Source of the DNA: Chrysiogenes arsenatis DSM 11915
GTDB lineage: Bacteria > Chrysiogenota > Chrysiogenetes > Chrysiogenales > Chrysiogenaceae
Direction of reading: 5' to 3'
Assembly (NCBI RefSeq): GCF_000469585.1
Contig: NZ_AWNK01000001.1
Location: 731 to 64,730 of the forward strand
DNA: 64,000 nucleotides
Both the position numbers and the translations under genes were made by a program. Under the pieces are notes generated by a model that saw only the letters and a list, made by a program, of their open reading frames with translations, ran no database searches and had not been told where the DNA came from. Numbering within the stretch: position 1 is the first letter of the stretch; every line of letters starts with the position of its first letter. Below are positions 106-47,847 of the stretch, piece after piece.

Positions 106-2619
106 ATGACGGCCAAACCCTTAACCCCGATGATGCGCCAATACCTCGGCATCAAGCAAGATCACCCTGACACACTTCTCCTCTTTAGGATGGGTGATTT
201 TTACGAACTATTTGGAGACGACGCCATTGTTGCTTCCGAAGTACTTGGCATTGCGGTCACTTCGCGCGATAAAGGTGAAGATAAACTACCCATGGCAGGC
301 GTGCCACACCATGCTCTCGACAACTACCTCTACCGTTTAGTAAAAGCTGGTCATAAGGTTGCCATATGCGATCAACTCGAAGACCCCAAGCAAGCTAAAG
401 GTATTGTAATGCGCGGCGTAACACGCATAGTTACTCCCGCAACCATATTAAATAGCGATGCACTTGACCCATCTGAAAACAACTTCCTTGCTGCACTGAC
501 AACAAATGGCAACGCACTGACGGCACTTCTTTGGGATCTTTCAACTGCCGATGTACGCCTACTCACTACGACAGCAGCAACATTTCAAGCTGACCTTGGC
601 GTCTATCAAATAGCAGAATACATTACGCCCGACGAATCCCTAACCGCCTTCGCCCCACTGACAACCATCAGCCATGCCGTCATGGCACAAATCCCAGAGA
701 CTGACCTCTTACCTTCAGAACGGCGCGCCCTGAGCGCCGCCGCAAGCTACCTGAGCGCAACACAACTTCGTACGATTCTTCCTCATACCATCACGCGCGC
801 CAATGCTGACACCACCATGATCATCGATACATCCACCGCACGCAATCTTGAGCTTTTCCAGAACAGCAATGGCGGACGCGAACATTCGCTTCTTTCCGTG
901 CTCGACCGCACCCGCACTGCGATGGGAGGGCGGATGATTCGCGATTGGCTACGCGCACCACTCTGCAGCATACATCGCATTGAAGCACGCCATGATAGTG
1001 TTGAATACTTTCTTACAAACTACCCACTGACCAGCGCGATCCGCACTGCACTTCGTCAAATACATGACCTTGAACGGCTTATCAATCGAATGACTCTGCA
1101 ACAACATCGCCCGCGCGATCTAGTCGCATTGCGCCAATCCCTCGTCGTACTCTCTGAAATCCGGGAACTTGGCAGCAACAGCGACCTCACGGCTTTGCTT
1201 GACGAAACTTTTGCTTCCATTATTGATTTCACGGCATTGCACGAGTTGCTTCATAGAGGGATCCTTGACGAACCCGCTTCTGTCTTACGACAAGGAAATG
1301 TCATCCGATCAGGCTATGACCAGCGGCTCGACGAACTTCGCAATATACGCGAAAATTCACGAGACACTATCTTACGCATGGAAGCTGGCGAAAAGGAACG
1401 CACCGGCATTAGCAGCTTGAAAATTCGTTACAACCGAGTATTCGGCTATTACATCGAAATTCCTAATTCGCAGCGCGATCGCGTTCCCGCGGAATACATT
1501 CGCAAACAAACCCTAGTGAATGCTGAACGCTATATCACACAATCAATTAAAGAACTAGAAGAGGAGATCCTTGCCGCCGAAGATCGACTCGCCCCATACG
1601 AAGAAGAGTTGTATCTTGCCATTTGCGAGCAGGTCACTCAATGGAGCGATCAAATTTTGCAAGCTGCCCAGAGCGTTGCCACCATTGACGTTCTTACCAA
1701 CTTTGCTGAATTGGCCGCACAGCACCGCTACTGTCGTCCCATCATGTCGACTGATCCCATATTAAGCATTACTGGATTGCGCCATCCTGTCATCGAAACA
1801 TTGAGTCATGAACCTTTTATAGCCAACGATGTCACGCTGAACCGTGACGACCAACAACTGATGATCCTTACCGGCCCAAACATGGCAGGGAAGTCTACCT
1901 ACATGCGTCAATCTGCCCTCGCGGCCATCATGGCGCAAATGGGATCATTCGTAAGCGCACGCAGCGCCACCATCGGCCTGTGCGATCGAATCTTTACCCG
2001 TGTTGGCGCAAGCGATAATCTGGCAGAAGGGAAATCGACCTTCATGGTTGAAATGAGCGAGACTTCTACCATTCTGCGCCATTCAACTCCACGCAGCCTG
2101 ATTATTATCGATGAGGTGGGGCGCGGAACCAGCACCTTTGATGGTATCTCTATTGCTTGGAGCGTTGCCGAATATTTGAGCCGCAATGGCACCATTGCCG
2201 CGCGTACCATGTTTGCAACCCATTTTCACGAACTCACTGATCTGGCTCGTGAAATTCCCGGCGTCTTCAATGCTCACATTTTAATTTCAGAAAAAGAAGG
2301 TCGATTAGTTTTCCTGCGTAAAGTCGCCCCTGGTGCAGCGCCAAAATCGTATGGCATTGAAGTTGCTCGACTTGCTGCGCTTCCAGATACTGTTGTCGAA
2401 CGTGCCCAAGCAATATTAAAGAATCTTGAAGCAAGAGAATATAATATTGATGGGAAACCGGCTATTAGCCACATACCAACGAAACCACCACTTTTGTTTG
2501 GGCCGGCACTGTTTGATCCCGTTATTGATCGGATTGAAAACCTTGATATCGACGCCCTCACCCCGCGCGAAGCTCTCCAGCTACTGTACGAGCTTCAACG
2601 CGAAGTTCGGGGCGAGTAA
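106..2619 (+). CDS. mutS: DNA mismatch repair protein MutS
   Basis: MutS (837 aa, normal family length) finds mismatches and small loops in newly replicated DNA and starts mismatch repair with MutL. The N-terminal mismatch-binding motif GDFYELF, with its Phe-Tyr-Glu wedge, is present around residue 40. The C-terminal ATPase has a Walker A motif TGPNMAGKST near residue 600 and a Walker B/signature segment IIIDEVGRGTSTFDG. An in-frame GTG at 70 would add 12 residues, but the ATG at 106 has GGAG at the right spacing and the promoter lies too close to 70. No mutL is present in the window. The gene converges on fumC with only about 10 bases between them. Confidence 0.97.
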   Translation: MTAKPLTPMMRQYLGIKQDHPDTLLLFRMGDFYELFGDDAIVASEVLGIAVTSRDKGEDKLPMAGVPHHALDNYLYRLVKAGHKVAICDQLEDPKQAKGIVMRGVTRIVTPATILNSDALDPSENNFLAALTTNGNALTALLWDLSTADVRLLTTTAATFQADLGVYQIAEYITPDESLTAFAPLTTISHAVMAQIPETDLLPSERRALSAAASYLSATQLRTILPHTITRANADTTMIIDTSTARNLELFQNSNGGREHSLLSVLDRTRTAMGGRMIRDWLRAPLCSIHRIEARHDSVEYFLTNYPLTSAIRTALRQIHDLERLINRMTLQQHRPRDLVALRQSLVVLSEIRELGSNSDLTALLDETFASIIDFTALHELLHRGILDEPASVLRQGNVIRSGYDQRLDELRNIRENSRDTILRMEAGEKERTGISSLKIRYNRVFGYYIEIPNSQRDRVPAEYIRKQTLVNAERYITQSIKELEEEILAAEDRLAPYEEELYLAICEQVTQWSDQILQAAQSVATIDVLTNFAELAAQHRYCRPIMSTDPILSITGLRHPVIETLSHEPFIANDVTLNRDDQQLMILTGPNMAGKSTYMRQSALAAIMAQMGSFVSARSATIGLCDRIFTRVGASDNLAEGKSTFMVEMSETSTILRHSTPRSLIIIDEVGRGTSTFDGISIAWSVAEYLSRNGTIAARTMFATHFHELTDLAREIPGVFNAHILISEKEGRLVFLRKVAPGAAPKSYGIEVARLAALPDTVVERAQAILKNLEAREYNIDGKPAISHIPTKPPLLFGPALFDPVIDRIENLDIDALTPREALQLLYELQREVRGE

Positions 2620-35815: not shown

Positions 35816-36337
35816 ATGGCAACGGATCTGAAGTATGAGTTTTCGTGGGAATTATTGGGTGACATTGAGCAAGGGCGCCCGAATTTAGGCAATTCCACCC
35901 GTTTAGAAGTGTATCGGTTGATGCAGTTTTGCTTCCGTGATGTTCTGGAAAAACGGTATGGTGCCGATGAAACAGACAAAATTTTTTATGACGCTGGGTA
36001 CACAGCTGGCAAAGCGTTCTACACGAATCTGATAGGGTACCAAGAAGACTTGAACGAGTTTGTCAAAACGCTGCAGTCGCTCCTGAAAGAATTAGGTATC
36101 GGCATTTTACGGGTCGAAGAAGCCGATCTCGAGCAGGGAAAGTTGACGTTGACGGTTTCGGAGGATCTCGATTGCTCCGGACTTCCAGAAAGCGGCGACG
36201 AACTCTGCACATATGATGAAGGGTTTATTGCCGCGCTGCTCGAAAGCTTTACGGGGAAGAAATTCAGTGTCAAAGAAGTTGATTGTTGGTGTACGGGGGA
36301 CAGAACCTGCCGTTTTTCGGCACAGGTAGTGTCGTAA
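35816..36337 (+). CDS. V4R-domain sensor protein
   Basis: A 173-residue soluble protein with a V4R (4-vinyl reductase) domain, a small-molecule-binding fold seen in regulators of aromatic breakdown and in bacteriochlorophyll enzymes. The C-terminal Cys motif VDCWCTGDRTCRF is characteristic and may bind a metal or haem-like ligand. GAGGAGG lies upstream of the ATG. The GGDEF protein begins 4 bases after its stop, so it probably supplies a ligand or redox signal to that diguanylate cyclase. Confidence 0.8.
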   Translation: MATDLKYEFSWELLGDIEQGRPNLGNSTRLEVYRLMQFCFRDVLEKRYGADETDKIFYDAGYTAGKAFYTNLIGYQEDLNEFVKTLQSLLKELGIGILRVEEADLEQGKLTLTVSEDLDCSGLPESGDELCTYDEGFIAALLESFTGKKFSVKEVDCWCTGDRTCRFSAQVVS

Positions 36338-36340
36338 CAC

Positions 36341-37648
36341 ATGGATGAACACTACATTGCCTCGTTACTGCGGGAGCTTGCTTCGGGCAAGATCCCGCGT
36401 CAGCCTCTCTCTGAGACTGCACCTTGTGCAGAAGAATTACGCGCCCTAATTGGCTATCTGGAGCAGTTGCAGCAGTTTTCTATTGCTTTGGCGAATGGTG
36501 ATCTTTCGGCATCGCTGAGCGGCGTCAAAGGGTCAGTAGCGGGCAGTATGAAAGCTCTTCATGCCGGTTTGCGCCATTTGACGTGGCAAGCGCAACAAAT
36601 TGCCGCGGGTGACTTTACGCAGCGTGTTGATTTTATGGGCGAGTTTTCTGTGGCGTTCAATGCCATGGTTGACCGCTTAGCGCTTTCACGTACCGCGATG
36701 GAAGCGATGAACCGTCTGCTACAAGAAGAAAACATGAAACTGCATGCCTTGACAGAAGCACTGCGCGAAAGCGAAGAACGCTTTCGTCTGATTGCGGAAA
36801 ATGTCAATGACGTTATCTGGACACTTGACCCATCAATGACATTTTTTACGTATATCAGCCCATCTATCGCGCATTTGCTCGGTGTCAAAGCCGACGACGC
36901 GCTCCATAAGCCAATGGACGAACTGATGACAGAGGAGTCGGCTCGGCAACTGCGCACAACGTTGAGCGCGATGACCGAACGCTGCCTGCACAATCCTGCT
37001 GGCGCAGGGTTAATTTCCAATGCCGTTGAAATTGAGCAACGGTGCCAGAGCGGCATCATCATCCATGTTGAAGTGGTTCTTTCCGCCATTATCGATAGCG
37101 GCGGTGTTCTCAAAGAATTTGTTGGGATTTCACGGGATATCTCCGAGCGGAAAAAAGCGGAGGAGGTATTACGTTACCAAAGCTCACACGACGCCCTTAC
37201 GGGACTCTACAACCGCGCCTATTTTGATCTGTCGTTAGAGAAATTCACCACGGACGGCGAGTTTCCATTGGGAATCATTGCTGCTGATCTTGATGGACTC
37301 AAACGCGTCAATGATACTTACGGTCACGATGCGGGCGATCAGCTTATTCGCGGAGCCGCCGAGGTACTTCGCAGGACATTTCGCGGTAACGATATCGTTG
37401 CGCGGATGGGTGGCGATGAGTTTGCTGTACTGCTGCCACACAGTGATTTGAACGCGGCACGTCGTTCGCTACAAAGAATACAACAGGAAATTGTCGAATA
37501 TAATCGTGAAGAGCAAAATCGTATCCCTGTGAGCATGTCACTTGGATGCGCTACCGCACAGAATGCAGAAGAAGTTGCTACCGCATTGAAAGAAGCGGAT
37601 ACGCTCATGTACGCCGATAAACTGTCACGACGCCAACAGCGCGCATAA
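36341..37648 (+). CDS. Cytoplasmic PAS-GGDEF diguanylate cyclase
   Basis: A 435-residue protein with no membrane segments. A HAMP-like helical region (LHAGLRHLTWQAQQIAAGDFTQRVDFMGEF, in shorter pieces) comes first. Next is a PAS domain (about 140-270), then a GGDEF domain with an intact MGGDEFAVLL active site, so it should make c-di-GMP. No EAL domain is attached. It is coupled to the V4R sensor upstream. The stop lies inside the terminator of the convergent cytochrome gene. Confidence 0.9.
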   Translation: MDEHYIASLLRELASGKIPRQPLSETAPCAEELRALIGYLEQLQQFSIALANGDLSASLSGVKGSVAGSMKALHAGLRHLTWQAQQIAAGDFTQRVDFMGEFSVAFNAMVDRLALSRTAMEAMNRLLQEENMKLHALTEALRESEERFRLIAENVNDVIWTLDPSMTFFTYISPSIAHLLGVKADDALHKPMDELMTEESARQLRTTLSAMTERCLHNPAGAGLISNAVEIEQRCQSGIIIHVEVVLSAIIDSGGVLKEFVGISRDISERKKAEEVLRYQSSHDALTGLYNRAYFDLSLEKFTTDGEFPLGIIAADLDGLKRVNDTYGHDAGDQLIRGAAEVLRRTFRGNDIVARMGGDEFAVLLPHSDLNAARRSLQRIQQEIVEYNREEQNRIPVSMSLGCATAQNAEEVATALKEADTLMYADKLSRRQQRA

Positions 37649-37734: not shown

Positions 37735-39195
37735 TTATTTGAGTGGATCAGCGCCGACGAATACTTTCCGTCCAGCTTTTTCCATCTGCTCTTTTTCCCA
37801 CGGCCAGATTGACTGCCAATCTTCCGCTTTCTTCGCATCGCCATCTTTTTTCAGCGCCCAATGGTACTGCTCAGGAGTCAGACCGAACGAACGGCCTTCA
37901 CTGTCCACATTGAAGATGTGCTGCTTATTCTTGCTGCGTCCACCCTCGTTATTCCAGTTACCATAGCCATATTTCGGCCAGCCATCAGCACCACTTAAAA
38001 CTTTTACCAATGACTCGGCTTTATCACCGTGGCACTTGGCGCAAGTTTCAACTGCAGTTTTGTCAAAGAGCCATGGGCTTTTCGGATTATTACCAACATT
38101 GTGTGAGGTGTGACAGTCGAAGCAGGCCATTTTGGCATGAACGCTGTTTTCTCCTTTGATGGTGTAGCCAAGTTTAATGTCCATATCCTGCTGGTGGTCA
38201 CGACGCCCTTTGCCATCGATAGAAACCTGACGGTTCCCTTTGCCCCAGTTTGGACGGGTGTACTGCATCACATCTTCATACTTGCTTTGCCCAACGATAA
38301 AGCCGCGGTTGTCGTTTGACCCTTTGCCGTATTTAGTGTTCATAGCAGTACGGGTGTGACAACGCGAGCAGACAACTTGACGCTCAGTTGGGTCGGTCAG
38401 CTTCGCAGGGTTAATAATATTGGTCTTGGAAGGCATTTTGGCATGAGCGGCTCCACCACCGTGACATGCTTCACACGAAACTTCGATAGAAGACACGAAA
38501 GTATCGCGTAAGTGGTCACGTTTTCCAGCAACAAACTCATCTTTTGCTTTGTACCACGCGTCGGCATCAAATCCTGTGCTGTGGCAGGCAATACAACGTT
38601 CCTGCCAAGAGTAGAATTCACCGTAATTATTCTTGTTCATCTTCCCATCGGTCGGGTTCACTTCAATAAAGAGGAACTTGTACCCAGCCCGCTCTTTATT
38701 GCCGGGATAGTCAACAACAGTTGACTTGTCAAGTTTCCAGCTTATACCACCAGTTTCAGTGGTTGCTAACCACGCTTTGCGCGGGCTGCCATCATAGTAA
38801 ACCGCGTAACGCTGCTTACGCTGTGAACCGACAACCAATTCTACTTCTTCAAACTTAATTTTATCGATAGCAACATAATTTGTGGTGGCATCTTTGCGAT
38901 CAAGAATCATGTACGTGTCCAACGTATCCCAATCGCGTTTCACCCACGGATAGATTTTTTCACTTCCCCATGGGTAGTCGCGCCCTTTGAGGTACTGCTC
39001 AGGGTACGCCGGACCCCACTCAGTTTTCTTGGTGTGCCAGCTTGATGACCACTGCTTGTGAATATCCGTGTGGCACAATTTACAGGTGTCTGGGCCAACG
39101 AACCCTTCAGTAGGATGCGTCATAAAATCTTTTGCCATTGAGACTGACGTGAGCCAGAACAAGGCGAGTACAATGCTCAGTAATCCTTTTTTCAT
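37735..39195 (-). CDS. Periplasmic hexahaem cytochrome c
   Basis: A 486-residue exported multihaem cytochrome. A Sec signal peptide covers about residues 1-21 (ending SMAK). Six CXXCH haem-c motifs are seen: CKLCH, CIACH, CEACH, CSRCH, CFDCH and CAKCH. The N-terminal portion (GFVGPDTCKLCHTDIHKQW) resembles the cytochrome c554 type. No lipobox or molybdopterin partner is present. The ATG at 39195 has GGAGG upstream. A 39-residue membrane peptide precedes it under a sigma-54 promoter, and an NtrC-type regulator lies just upstream. It probably transfers electrons to, or reduces, an oxyanion or metal; the substrate is unknown. Confidence 0.88.
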   Translation of the reverse strand: MKKGLLSIVLALFWLTSVSMAKDFMTHPTEGFVGPDTCKLCHTDIHKQWSSSWHTKKTEWGPAYPEQYLKGRDYPWGSEKIYPWVKRDWDTLDTYMILDRKDATTNYVAIDKIKFEEVELVVGSQRKQRYAVYYDGSPRKAWLATTETGGISWKLDKSTVVDYPGNKERAGYKFLFIEVNPTDGKMNKNNYGEFYSWQERCIACHSTGFDADAWYKAKDEFVAGKRDHLRDTFVSSIEVSCEACHGGGAAHAKMPSKTNIINPAKLTDPTERQVVCSRCHTRTAMNTKYGKGSNDNRGFIVGQSKYEDVMQYTRPNWGKGNRQVSIDGKGRRDHQQDMDIKLGYTIKGENSVHAKMACFDCHTSHNVGNNPKSPWLFDKTAVETCAKCHGDKAESLVKVLSGADGWPKYGYGNWNNEGGRSKNKQHIFNVDSEGRSFGLTPEQYHWALKKDGDAKKAEDWQSIWPWEKEQMEKAGRKVFVGADPLK

Positions 39196-39380: not shown

Positions 39381-39396
39381 AGCAAGGAGGATGCCA
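39381..39396 (-). promoter_or_regulatory. Sigma-54 (-24/-12) promoter for the cytochrome operon
   Basis: On the minus strand the site reads TGGCAT-CCTCC-TTGCT, matching the sigma-54 consensus TGGCAY-N5-TTGCW with exactly 10 bases between the -24 GG and the -12 GC. Transcription would start near 39371, some 24 bases before the small membrane peptide. Confidence 0.82.
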
Positions 39397-39458: not shown

Positions 39459-39476
39459 TGCGTCATTCATGACGCA
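39459..39476 (-). promoter_or_regulatory. Palindromic enhancer site 1 for the NtrC-type activator
   Basis: TGCGTCAT-TC-ATGACGCA is a perfect 8-bp-arm palindrome centred about 80 bases upstream of the sigma-54 promoter. It is a likely binding site for the activator encoded at 39571-40947. Confidence 0.7.
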
Positions 39477-39532: not shown

Positions 39533-39566
39533 TTACGGCATGTGTCAATGATGACGCATGCCGTAA
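39533..39566 (-). promoter_or_regulatory. Enhancer site 2 inside a long inverted repeat
   Basis: The sequence TGTGTCAA-TG-ATGACGCA (39541-39558) repeats enhancer site 1 with two changes, 82 bases further upstream. It lies inside a 10-bp perfect inverted repeat (TTACGGCATG with CATGCCGTAA), 5 bases after the stop of the regulator gene. The hairpin could also end the regulator transcript, though no clear T-run follows. Confidence 0.6.
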
Positions 39567-39570
39567 GCAG

Positions 39571-40947
39571 CTATTCGCGAAAACGCGCTGTGTCGAAATC
39601 GTAGCGCCGCACAAGGCGTTGCAGATTCGCACGGTCAAGCCCCGCGCGCACTGCAGCGCGCGTGACATTCCCGCCCGAGTCGCGAAAAAGAGCATTGAGG
39701 TAGTGAGAGTGGAACGAGTTGAGCGCATACTCTTTCGCTTCCTGATAGGTCGAGGTGGCCTGAAAAGCGCCACAATCATGATTGGACGATGATGAGGCTG
39801 GACGACAAGTAATCTCTTGCGGCAGTGTTTCGTAGGTGATGAGAGGAGACCCAACAAAGACACAAAGACGCTCAACCAGATTTTCTAATTCACGAATATT
39901 GCCCGGCCAGTCATAGCCCATCAGTGCATCCAACGCTGGACTTTCGATGGTTTTCCGTCCTCGCAGAAAGTGCTCCAAAAGCAGCGGAATGTCATCACGA
40001 CGTTCGCGCAATGGCGGGATTGAGAGGGGGAAAACATTAATACGGTAGAAAAGATCTTCGCGAAAGAGGTTGTCCTGTACCAGCGTTGAAAGAACTCTAC
40101 TGGTAGCGGTAATAACGCGGACATTGACCTCTATTTCCGCTGTATCTCCAAGGCGGCGGATTTTTTTCTCCTGCAACACACGGAGAAGCTTCGCCTGCAC
40201 GGCAGCCGAAGTATCGGCAATTTCATCCAGAAAAAGCGTTCCCCCTTCCGCATGTTGAATGAGCCCTTGGCGCGACTCAGTGGCGCCAGTAAATGAACCT
40301 TTGGCATGTCCAAAAAGTTCGCTTTCCAGCAGTGTATCAGGGAGTGCACTACAATTAACGGCCACAAAATTCTTCCGCGCCCGATGGCTGCTATAATGGA
40401 TCGCTCGCGCCACCAGCTCTTTCCCCGTGCCGCTTTCCCCTTGGATAGAAACAGTAGCGTGACTATCGGCGATTTTTTCAATAAGCCCAAAAAGCCCTTG
40501 CATGGCCGGTGATTGCCCAACAATGCTTTGAAAGGAATAGCGACGGATCAACTCCTGCCGCAGTTGCTGATTCTCGGCACGTAATACCCGTTTTTCGATA
40601 ACGCGGCGGATGGCATGGATAACGGTATCGTTTTCAAATGGCTTAACAATATAGTCGTACGCGCCGTTGCGCATAGCATCTACCGCGTGTTCAATGGTGG
40701 CAAATGCCGTCATGATAATCACGTCCGCTTGCGGTTGTACGCTACGAACCTGCTGTAAGATATCGCTGCCCGTCGCTTCGGGCATGTAAAAATCAGACAG
40801 CACGACATCAAATATATCGGTTTCTAAAATCGCCAACGCCTCTATCGATCGACTACAGGTGCGCACATCATGGTTTTCTCGCACAAGTAACCGCTCCAAC
40901 AAACGGCACATTGCGGCATCATCATCAATTACGAAAATACGTGCCAT
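39571..40947 (-). CDS. NtrC-type sigma-54-dependent response regulator
   Basis: A 458-residue activator. The receiver domain has DDDAAMCRLL, the phospho-acceptor in VVLSDFYMPE and the Lys in YIVKPFENDT. The AAA+ domain (about 140-370) has Walker A GESGTGKELVARAIH, the sigma-54 contact loop around GAFTGA (here GSFTGATESRQG) and a Walker B near GGTLFLDEIADTS. A Fis-type helix-turn-helix ends the protein (NVTRAAVRAGLDRANLQRLVRR). It overlaps the kinase gene upstream. Its probable target is the sigma-54 promoter immediately downstream. Confidence 0.93.
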   Translation of the reverse strand: MARIFVIDDDAAMCRLLERLLVRENHDVRTCSRSIEALAILETDIFDVVLSDFYMPEATGSDILQQVRSVQPQADVIIMTAFATIEHAVDAMRNGAYDYIVKPFENDTVIHAIRRVIEKRVLRAENQQLRQELIRRYSFQSIVGQSPAMQGLFGLIEKIADSHATVSIQGESGTGKELVARAIHYSSHRARKNFVAVNCSALPDTLLESELFGHAKGSFTGATESRQGLIQHAEGGTLFLDEIADTSAAVQAKLLRVLQEKKIRRLGDTAEIEVNVRVITATSRVLSTLVQDNLFREDLFYRINVFPLSIPPLRERRDDIPLLLEHFLRGRKTIESPALDALMGYDWPGNIRELENLVERLCVFVGSPLITYETLPQEITCRPASSSSNHDCGAFQATSTYQEAKEYALNSFHSHYLNALFRDSGGNVTRAAVRAGLDRANLQRLVRRYDFDTARFRE

Positions 40948-42530
40948 TCTGATTCCTTTCTGCAAGAGGGGTAACACGGAAGGGTGATACACACCGTGGT
41001 GCCTTTGCCATGTTCGCTCTCTATCTGAATATCGCCACCATGTTCACGAATGATACCGTACGAGATCGCTAGCCCTAATCCAGTTCCCTCTTTTTTCGTG
41101 GTAAAAAATGGTTGAAAAACTTTTTCTAGGACTTCTGGCGCAATGCCCAACCCATTATCGGCAATACAAATGACAACGGTATCATCTTCGCATCTGGTTG
41201 ATAATGCCAATTCGCCTTGGCCATGAATGGCGTCAATCGCGTTCAAGATGATATTGAGCAACACTTGTTTGATTTGCATCGCATCGGCCGATACCTCTGG
41301 CACGTCTGTTGCATACTCTGTCTGGATGCGAATGTGTTTCGTTGCCGTCTGATACCCTACCAACACCAGTGTTTCCTGCAGCAGGGCGTTGACGCTCACA
41401 ACAGCAACCGCATTCGACGGCGTGCGTGAAAATTGCAAAAGGCCTTGCACGATGCGACGACATCGCTGGGATTCTTGCTCAATAATAGCCATATCATTAT
41501 AGAATGGATGATCGGGCGTCATTTCATCAAGTATAACGCGACAAAATCCGCCAATAGTGTTGAGCGGGGTGCTGATTTCATGGGAAACCCCCGCGGCGAG
41601 AGTGCCAACGGCGGCCAGTGTTTCTGCGCGTACCATAAGCGTTTGCGCTTCTTTCAGGGCGCGTGTGGCGTCTTCAATCCGTCGTTCAAGGCTCTCGTTC
41701 AGCTCTTGCAACGAACCAAGCAGTTGATCTTTTTCAGCATGAATGGTTTCCAGACGCGACGCCATAAGATTAAACGATTCGGCCAAGAATGCTATTTCAT
41801 CACTGGCTTGTACGTGAACCCGCTGGGTAAAGTCGCCACGGCTTATAGTTTGCGTGGCACGGGTGAATGCTTCTATTGGGCGACTGATGCTGCGAATGAC
41901 GAGGACAAATATGGCAACAGAAAGGAAAAATGTCACCACAACAACACTCCAGATCGTGATGCGCGAACGGGTTACTTCGCTGCGGCTGGTACGGTTTATC
42001 TCCACGCGCATGGCGTCAGCGGCATGATGAGCGGTCTGCAAGTGCTCTATGAGGGTTTGCGAGCGTTCGCTGGCAAGCTGTTCGTGGAGGTGTCGTTGCT
42101 CTTCGTCAATGGCAGTTATGATCGTGCTGATATCCTGTTTGTACAGCTCAATCGTGCGTACCATGTCGCCTAAAATCCCCTCCACGGAGACGATCCGCTG
42201 GTTGACTTCAGCATGACATTGCATGCAGGTAATGTCGCCTGAATGGCTTTTGTATTGCTTCTCGATAAATTCGTGATGTTTTTCGAATGCTTCGACGTAG
42301 GCCACAAGATCATTGATACTGTGCGAATACCCGGCCTGATGGCGGTACATTTCTGCCTGGGCACTACGCAGAAGATACAGCATCTCCGTATATCGGCTAA
42401 TGATAGCGTTCTGCTCATTGGTAATCTGCTGATTGACAAACAGGGTATCAAGACTGCGAAGCACGATAAATGCAGCAAATAAAAAGAGCATCATGGTTAT
42501 GCCAAGCGCAGTAAAAAGTTTTTTTCTCAT
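40929..42530 (-). CDS. Membrane histidine kinase with haem-c motif in the sensor domain
   Basis: A 533-residue kinase. The first membrane helix is about residues 8-28 and the second about 190-215, and between them lies a periplasmic helical domain. That domain contains ITCMQCHAEVNQ, an exact CXXCH motif (Cys102, Cys105, His106), so a covalent haem c is likely. After the second helix come a HAMP domain (IEAFTRATQTISRGDFTQRV), a coiled coil, the H box (GVSHEISTPLNTI) and an HATPase domain (ADNGLGI, GTGLGLAISYGI). The start overlaps the end of the PhnD-like gene. It is the probable partner of the sigma-54 regulator and of the binding protein. Confidence 0.9.
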   Translation of the reverse strand: MRKKLFTALGITMMLFLFAAFIVLRSLDTLFVNQQITNEQNAIISRYTEMLYLLRSAQAEMYRHQAGYSHSINDLVAYVEAFEKHHEFIEKQYKSHSGDITCMQCHAEVNQRIVSVEGILGDMVRTIELYKQDISTIITAIDEEQRHLHEQLASERSQTLIEHLQTAHHAADAMRVEINRTSRSEVTRSRITIWSVVVVTFFLSVAIFVLVIRSISRPIEAFTRATQTISRGDFTQRVHVQASDEIAFLAESFNLMASRLETIHAEKDQLLGSLQELNESLERRIEDATRALKEAQTLMVRAETLAAVGTLAAGVSHEISTPLNTIGGFCRVILDEMTPDHPFYNDMAIIEQESQRCRRIVQGLLQFSRTPSNAVAVVSVNALLQETLVLVGYQTATKHIRIQTEYATDVPEVSADAMQIKQVLLNIILNAIDAIHGQGELALSTRCEDDTVVICIADNGLGIAPEVLEKVFQPFFTTKKEGTGLGLAISYGIIREHGGDIQIESEHGKGTTVCITLPCYPSCRKESEWHVFS

Positions 42531-43474
42531 GGTTTCGCTATGGAATCAATGCGTGTGAGCGGTTCATTAAAAAGTTCCATCTCGCGCATAATATAGCGCA
42601 GAGCGTCATATTCGTGATCTTCGGTGCGGATAAAGCGCTCTGCTCCAAGTGCTTTTAAGGCTTGTTGTCCAGCATCTGAGAGGTGCATGTCCAAAAGTGC
42701 CGTCTCGATTTGTTGCTTCAGTGCGGTGTCAAGATCGTTGCGAACGGCGAGGGTGTTGGTTGGCACCGATATTTCCCCAGAGGCTATGATCGTAAGAGAA
42801 GCGGCAATATCGGCATTCTGCTGCATCATGCGATTGACAATTGACTCTTTGGCGGCACCGATATCAGCATGTTTGGAATGGACGGCTAGCACCGTCGCGT
42901 CATGGCTGCCAAGGAAAAGAATCCGTTCAAAATAGGCGTGGTAATCGCCACTATAGCTCTGATGCAGGTACCAACGCGGAAAGAGATAGCCAGCAGTGTT
43001 CGCATGATGCACTAACGCAATACGCTTTCCAACCCACGTGGTGACATCGCTCGTCACACCTGTTTCAGGGCGCGTAAAGATCACACCACGGTATTCTGCG
43101 CCATATTCGGTATCTACTGGGCGCGCTATTGGCTCTATAAGCCCTTGCTGATAGGTCAGCGCATAGATGTAGCTGCCGAAAAATGCCGCGTCAATAATGT
43201 CTTCTTCCAACTCTTTGGCAATCCCGACGTGACTGTAACTGTCGAGAAGTTTTATTTTTACCGGTCGGCGCAAAGCTTGTGTCAGGTATTCGCCAAGCTG
43301 ATGATAACGCTTGCGCTGCTCGAAAACGTTTTGTTCTGGCAGAATACCGATTGTGAATGGCTTCCCAGCATAAAGCGTCTGAATTGGTGGTGGTTCTGGC
43401 AGCGCAGGCTGTTGTTCGCAGCCTGCGAGAAGGAATACTGCGAATAGTACCAGTAAGCTTTTTTTCAAAGACAT
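42527..43474 (-). CDS. PhnD-like periplasmic substrate-binding lipoprotein
   Basis: A 315-residue lipoprotein with a lipobox LLAGC at Cys19. The mature part is a PhnD/phosphonate-type solute-binding protein (FTIGILPEQNVFEQRKRYHQL, then IIDAAFFGSYIYALTYQQGL, and SKHADIGAAKESIVNRMM). No ABC permease or ATPase is adjacent. It is instead fused by overlap to a histidine kinase and a sigma-54 regulator, the gene order of the arsenite sensor AioX-AioS-AioR. It most likely captures an oxyanion and signals to the kinase. The ligand is not shown by the sequence. Confidence 0.86.
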   Translation of the reverse strand: MSLKKSLLVLFAVFLLAGCEQQPALPEPPPIQTLYAGKPFTIGILPEQNVFEQRKRYHQLGEYLTQALRRPVKIKLLDSYSHVGIAKELEEDIIDAAFFGSYIYALTYQQGLIEPIARPVDTEYGAEYRGVIFTRPETGVTSDVTTWVGKRIALVHHANTAGYLFPRWYLHQSYSGDYHAYFERILFLGSHDATVLAVHSKHADIGAAKESIVNRMMQQNADIAASLTIIASGEISVPTNTLAVRNDLDTALKQQIETALLDMHLSDAGQQALKALGAERFIRTEDHEYDALRYIMREMELFNEPLTRIDSIAKP

Positions 43475-43619
43475 GGTCACTTCCATTGCTTGAGCGCGAT
43501 GCGTTAATGAACGTGCATGCGTTATAATCGTTATCCTAGAGAGTTGTCGAGAATTCTCTGCAGTTGATAATACTCAACACTTTCGCTATCATACAAAAAA
43601 TTGTATCGGGAGGTGCATT

Positions 43620-47592: not shown

Positions 47593-47847
47593 ATGGGAAG
47601 AGCACAGCTAGCACCAGATGGCACATATGTCGGAGGCGAACCGCACCTTGCGCCTAACGGGAAGTTCGTTGGCGGCAAGCCCCAGCTTGCACCTAATGGG
47701 CAGTTCGTCGGAGGAAATCCCCGACTCGCTCCCGATGGAACCTATGTTGGGGGCAAGCCACACCTTGCTCCTGATGGCACCTATGTTGGAGGGAAACCGA
47801 TTCTTGCCCCAAACGGGAAGTATGTCGGCGATGGATCGACCGACTAA
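47593..47847 (+). CDS. Protein of six 13-residue repeats
   Basis: An 84-residue protein made almost wholly of six repeats with the pattern P-x-LAP-(D/N)-G-x-(Y/F)-VGG-x, such as PHLAPDGTYVGGK. The repeats are encoded by 39-base units that also match at DNA level. AAAGGAG precedes the ATG. There is no signal peptide or membrane segment. The function is unknown. It follows the attC-like site and may be part of the same mobile insertion. Confidence 0.7.
   Translation: MGRAQLAPDGTYVGGEPHLAPNGKFVGGKPQLAPNGQFVGGNPRLAPDGTYVGGKPHLAPDGTYVGGKPILAPNGKYVGDGSTD

Follow-up and report, generated by a model that had tools for sequence, protein, structure and literature searches.

A PhnD-like lipoprotein, a histidine kinase with a predicted haem c and an NtrC-type activator form a putative respiratory sensor in Chrysiogenes arsenatis

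We examined a window of 64,000 nucleotides from Chrysiogenes arsenatis DSM 11915 (contig NZ_AWNK01000001.1, positions 731 to 64,730 of the forward strand), in which three minus-strand genes encode a PhnD-like lipoprotein, a membrane histidine kinase and an NtrC-type response regulator (Table 1). A first-pass annotation, made from the sequence alone, had described these genes as overlapping end to end, and we confirmed overlaps of 4 bases between lipoprotein and kinase and 19 bases between kinase and regulator. The open reading frame (ORF) of the lipoprotein reaches 43486 with a probable start at an inner ATG (43474), and the protein contains an LLAGC lipobox and the full Phosphonate-bd Pfam domain (2.5e-47). 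The H, N, G1 and G2 boxes are all present in the kinase, with His 317 as phospho-acceptor. The regulator probably starts at ATG 40947, which has a ribosome-binding site (RBS), rather than at GTG 40992, and contains the receiver aspartate, Walker A, a GSFTGA loop of the GAFTGA type and the helix-turn-helix. By its tested sequence features the triad is a two-component system with a sigma-54 activator. We propose that it works as a three-component respiratory sensor, in which the kinase, dependent on both a ligand and its haem, induces a multi-haem cytochrome of respiration, and we give this reading a probability of about 0.7.

Table 1. Features of the sensor locus (positions in the window)
Feature	Position	Strand	Basis or remark
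PhnD-like periplasmic-binding lipoprotein	42527-43486	-	ORF and Pfam Phosphonate-bd, family alignment, tree, pocket mapping
Membrane histidine kinase	40929-42530	-	First transmembrane helix, periplasmic domain with CXXCH, second transmembrane helix, HAMP, HisKA, HATPase_c
CMQCH, predicted haem-c attachment motif, kinase residues 102-106	42213-42227	-	Motif read; invariant in 38 homologues
Met174 of kinase, candidate distal haem ligand	42009-42011	-	Invariant in 20/20 clade A sensors; topology from model
NtrC-type response regulator	39571-40947	-	Receiver, sigma-54 AAA+ (GSFTGA), helix-turn-helix
Palindromic site 2, TGCGTCATCATTGACACA	39541-39558	-	1 mismatch to TGCGTCAN4TGACGCA
Palindromic site 1, TGCGTCATGAATGACGCA	39459-39476	-	Perfect TGCGTCAN4TGACGCA
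Sigma-54 (-24/-12) promoter-like element, TGGCATCCTCCTTGCT	39381-39396	-	Cytochrome transcript
Small one-helix membrane protein ORF, 39 residues	39228-39347	-	Strong RBS; head of cytochrome transcript, unlisted ORF
Exported cytochrome c, six CXXCH, MtrC/cytochrome c554-like	37735-39195	-	Downstream of regulator

The exact CXXCH that had been pointed out at Cys102, Cys105 and His106 of the kinase reads CMQCH and lies on the periplasmic side, between the two membrane helices. A CXXCH arose by chance in 0.094% of shuffles of the 163-residue periplasmic stretch, but conservation is the stronger evidence, and the significance of the motif rests far more on the invariance of C102, C105 and H106 among 38 relatives. 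In the alignment of close sensors all 16 kept the motif, and Q58, C102, C105 and H106 were the sole invariant columns in the wider set of sensor domains from two clades and several phyla (motif in 38/38), though the search profiles included the CXXCH itself, which mildly biases its conservation. Clade A has the motif at about residue 102, while clade B has it mostly as CXXCHH at about residue 89. The lone close relative without it (L083, in the Nitrospirota-type genome G710) has a broken and shortened kinase gene (1393-1902, minus strand). At this locus the motif position reads CMQYY, the frame stops at 169 residues and the neighbouring lipoprotein gene is intact. None of the 38 sensor domains had a convincing Pfam family match, and the domain has no Pfam model. 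We rejected membership of the DUF3365/sCache_heme family, since PF11845 was not among the matches listed for the 38 members and the modelled domain is all-helical.

A cytochrome-c assembly protein is encoded in the C. arsenatis genome, so that haem attachment is within the ability of the host, and the kinase is predicted to carry a covalent haem c at CMQCH. A haem-free motif, in which the two cysteines serve as a redox-active disulfide switch or, together with the histidine, bind a metal, would be chemically possible in a periplasmic sensor, given that the haem c is itself a prediction; we consider it improbable. The histidine after the second cysteine is as invariant as the cysteines, which is expected for haem c and not for a disulfide, a conserved methionine is suitably placed in helix 4, and the host makes c-type cytochromes besides having the assembly protein.

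Modelling of the kinase sensor gave a confident, all-helical bundle (predicted local distance difference test, pLDDT, 86.5) with helices at residues 2–65, 73–96, 107–139 and 143–214; the CXXCH lies in the segment that joins helix 2 to helix 3. Judged by the helix lengths in the model, the haem site would face the part of helix 4 that bears Met174. In clade B a conserved methionine stands one heptad earlier (17 of the 18 sensors) and the CXXCH is likewise nearer the distal end, which suggests a His/Met ligation with His106 as proximal and the helix-4 methionine as distal ligand. We rejected His64 as the distal ligand: the model puts it at the membrane-distal end of helix 1, far from the CXXCH after helix 2, and it is missing in clade B, although conserved in the close family, where its conservation is partly biased because it was part of the search pattern (YRHQA). 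The conserved distal loop (residues 58–75) is a likely docking face for the lipoprotein. Weak fold matches of the sensor model included NarQ, PcaY and the LytS sensor complexed with the binding protein XylFII.

We then turned to the lipoprotein. A reverse search with the lipoprotein profile covered 20 genomes holding such a sensor and fetched 30 loci, 27 of which directly adjoin a CXXCH sensor kinase; of the other three, two stand alone and one precedes a different gene. In the tree, which has some long branches, the paired lipoproteins form one clade (99/98) in which the two kinase clades are mirrored, ArrX and AioX group together outside it (98/95), and the phosphite and phosphonate binders compared form a third group (96/93). 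The PhnD fold is indicated by the Pfam match and by matches to PtxB and PhnD, and the family-level scores were highest against PtxB and a phosphonate binder (142–144 bits). These top scores are what would speak for the lipoprotein being part of a phosphonate or phosphite importer, with the kinase as an unrelated neighbour, which we regard as extremely unlikely: no permease or ATPase gene adjoins the lipoprotein in the window, in Desulfurispirillum indicum (L010) or in the Nitrospirota loci (L020–L033), the coding sequence overlaps that of the kinase, and lipoprotein and kinase are paired across phyla. Membership of the ATP-binding cassette (ABC) phosphonate/phosphite binders was accordingly rejected, the lipoprotein falling outside the sampled transporter binders and having no linked permease. 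Neither outcome that the first-pass annotation had named as refuting its reading, loss of the CXXCH in close homologues or a lipoprotein clearly among ABC phosphonate binders with a permease gene, was observed.

The locus had also been likened to the arsenite-sensing AioX-AioS-AioR system by its gene order, and the order binding protein, kinase, RpoN-type regulator is indeed present. AioXSR, ArxXSR and ArrXSR share this order and the PhnD-like fold of the binding protein; AioR and ArxR are AtoC/NtrC-type regulators acting with RpoN, and systems of the AioXSR type control a neighbouring respiratory gene (PMC5908839). The likeness extends to the RpoN-type regulator and to the control, inferred in our case, of a neighbouring respiratory gene. 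With the same gene order and fold in an arsenate-respiring host, the triad might be an ordinary AioX/ArrX-type sensor of arsenic oxyanions in which the CXXCH is incidental. We mapped the seven residues that PMC5908839 lists for the AioX pocket and found the positions mostly similar (Tyr88, Tyr131, His192 and Asp210 mostly kept in the family) apart from Cys106 and Ser163. Cys106 is replaced by Gly in the window lipoprotein and in 26 of the 27 family members (Ser in one), Ser163 mostly by Ala (by Ala or Thr with few exceptions), and the Ser161 position holds Thr in nearly all members and Asn in the window lipoprotein. Crystallised ArrX comes from C. arsenatis (PMC5908839), and a separate locus of this genome encodes a protein identical to it over the mature part. 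That genuine ArrX gene adjoins an apparent arrA, the gene of the respiratory arsenate reductase, and the arr genes lie on another contig. Beside the triad we found no arsenic molybdoenzyme genes; its neighbour is the six-haem cytochrome. Membership of AioX/ArrX was rejected on three features, namely the pocket Cys106, the grouping in the tree and the adjacent arsenic molybdoenzyme genes, and an AioX/ArrX-type sensor is very unlikely also because nothing in the sensor domain is more conserved than the CXXCH. The proposed kinship to the arsenite-sensing system was therefore given up. The first-pass annotation had taken the haem motif for something not usually found in AioXSR; the motif stands but its AioXSR setting does not, and the sequence comparison indicates that the CXXCH is rather a constant feature of a separate kinase family paired with this lipoprotein clade. 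Owing to the separate lipoprotein clade and the Gly in place of the pocket Cys, the triad would work like AioXSR without being AioXSR, and it further differs from it in the invariant CXXCH of its kinase sensor and in its output, a multi-haem cytochrome and not a molybdoenzyme.

The six-haem cytochrome gene is the probable regulated target. No informative relative of the cytochrome was found among solved structures. Two palindromes lie between the regulator and the cytochrome, 82 bases apart and 71 and 153 bases upstream of the sigma-54 promoter-like element, and they are the only sites in the C. arsenatis genome with no or one mismatch to the palindromic pattern. Sites with up to two mismatches were no commoner than those of a reversed control pattern in this genome (12 and 11, respectively), hence we claim only the local target and no wider regulon. 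A similar -24/-12 element and a two-mismatch palindrome precede the cytochrome of D. indicum, and TGGCATnAAAATAGC-type elements with GCGTCA-like repeats precede cytochromes with six or eight CXXCH in the Nitrospirota loci. A strict sigma-54 pattern had 13 matches in 214,781 bases of these loci, of which 10 were just upstream of a multi-haem cytochrome gene (one match was scored as within an over-long ORF call). At the head of the cytochrome transcript, the small membrane protein ORF has a 29-residue relative (LLFGIITG...) at the same place in D. indicum, between promoter and cytochrome, and the likeness between these two Chrysiogenota species beat 500 of 500 shuffles.

Relatives were sought by profile and degenerate-pattern searches of genome contigs. 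The whole lipoprotein-kinase-regulator-cytochrome block is syntenic in D. indicum, with CMQCH in place. A four-sequence alignment led to 15 loci (14 contigs of Nitrospirota and one of Rokubacteria), and 60 of the 396 sampled Nitrospirota genomes contained relatives; triads followed by multi-haem cytochromes recur in this phylum. Further relatives were found in a second Rokubacteria-like genome and in two other small phyla. By these comparisons the triad appears to recur across distant phyla as an undescribed sensor family, and in the literature that we searched no helical haem-c kinase with a PhnD-like partner protein was described. In one Nitrospirota locus (L032, 2088-16642) the triad stands amid several large multi-haem cytochrome genes; in the last of these, which a sigma-54-like site precedes, CXXCH occurs at least 16 times.

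According to the mechanism we favour, the membrane-anchored, PhnD-fold lipoprotein would bind a small ligand (an oxyanion is the most likely) and would dock on the helical bundle that forms the periplasmic part of the kinase. A single haem c, covalently bound to this bundle at CMQCH and ligated by His106 on the proximal side and probably by the helix-4 Met on the distal side, would make the state of the bundle dependent not on the lipoprotein alone but also on redox potential or a gas. The kinase would phosphorylate the NtrC-type regulator, which would bind the two palindromes upstream of the sigma-54 promoter and, if the response runs in this direction, switch on the adjacent six-haem cytochrome c, presumably an electron carrier or terminal reductase. 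Several points weigh against this mechanism. The haem on this kinase is predicted from sequence, the target gene and the role of the palindromes are deduced from position, and the sensor fold matches were all non-significant (best E about 0.01). The oxyanion is a presumed ligand, in a pocket that combines AioX-like Tyr, Tyr, His and Asp with the lack of Cys106 and Ser163. Furthermore, no NtrC regulator adjoins the kinase in two Rokubacteria-like genomes, and the regulator step is therefore not universal.

The haem might also be the true input, through which the kinase would sense either how far the periplasmic cytochrome pool is loaded with electrons or a gas such as nitric oxide (NO) or O2, with the lipoprotein as a docking or structural partner that has no regulatory ligand. 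We find this rather unlikely, although multi-haem cytochromes recur as the outputs, NO binding or redox roles are known for other c-haem sensors (DUF3365/sCache_heme; PMC12889525), and no lipoprotein was detected beside some CXXCH kinases (L049, L050 and L062). The lipoprotein, however, adjoins the kinase in most loci, and the pocket Tyr, Tyr and His are strongly kept in clade A. Tentatively, the combined ligand and haem sensor may represent an undescribed multi-phylum kinase family, in which a haem-c helical bundle gated by a dedicated lipoprotein would allow multi-haem respiratory cytochromes to be produced only when a specific small oxyanion is present and the redox state is right.

In TorT-TorS and XylFII-LytS a periplasmic binding protein acts by docking on a helical-bundle kinase, much as we propose for the lipoprotein here; those kinases have no haem and their binding proteins belong to other families. 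The known c-type haem sensors (DUF3365/Tll0287 sCache_heme, DcrA, and Geobacter GSU0582 and GSU0935) have Cache/PAS-like folds and take redox or NO as input (PMC12889525, PMC8396549). They share with our kinase a single CXXCH haem c, predicted in our case, in the periplasmic sensor domain of a signalling protein, whereas our domain is all-helical and paired with a binding lipoprotein. Other Geobacter two-component proteins with CX2-4CH motifs (GSU0283, GSU0303 and others) are known by annotation (PMC8396549); the published account of them mentions neither a helical domain nor a family of PhnD-like lipoproteins paired with them, and they are set apart from our family by description only.

For bacteria respiring metals, metalloids or minerals, multi-haem cytochromes are costly to make, and how their production is controlled is mostly unknown. 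The triad would offer a self-contained module from sensor to promoter, with a predicted operator pair and a single adjacent target, that recurs in Chrysiogenota, Nitrospirota and other phyla. The locus also defines a predicted haem-c sensor domain that has no Pfam entry, provides a sequence signature for finding more, and offers a way to test whether ligand and redox inputs converge on one kinase.

Three minor observations concern other genes of C. arsenatis. On contig 22 of its genome (L012, 9984-12838), genes for a reverse transcriptase, a small helical Avd-like protein and an FGE/lectin-type protein stand in a row that resembles a diversity-generating retroelement. In the window, a V4R-domain protein is directly followed by a HAMP-PAS-GGDEF protein (35816-37648, plus strand), likely a small-ligand and cyclic di-GMP (c-di-GMP) pair. 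Finally, an 84-residue ORF on the plus strand (47593-47847) consists of near-identical short repeats (LAPDGTYVGGKPH).

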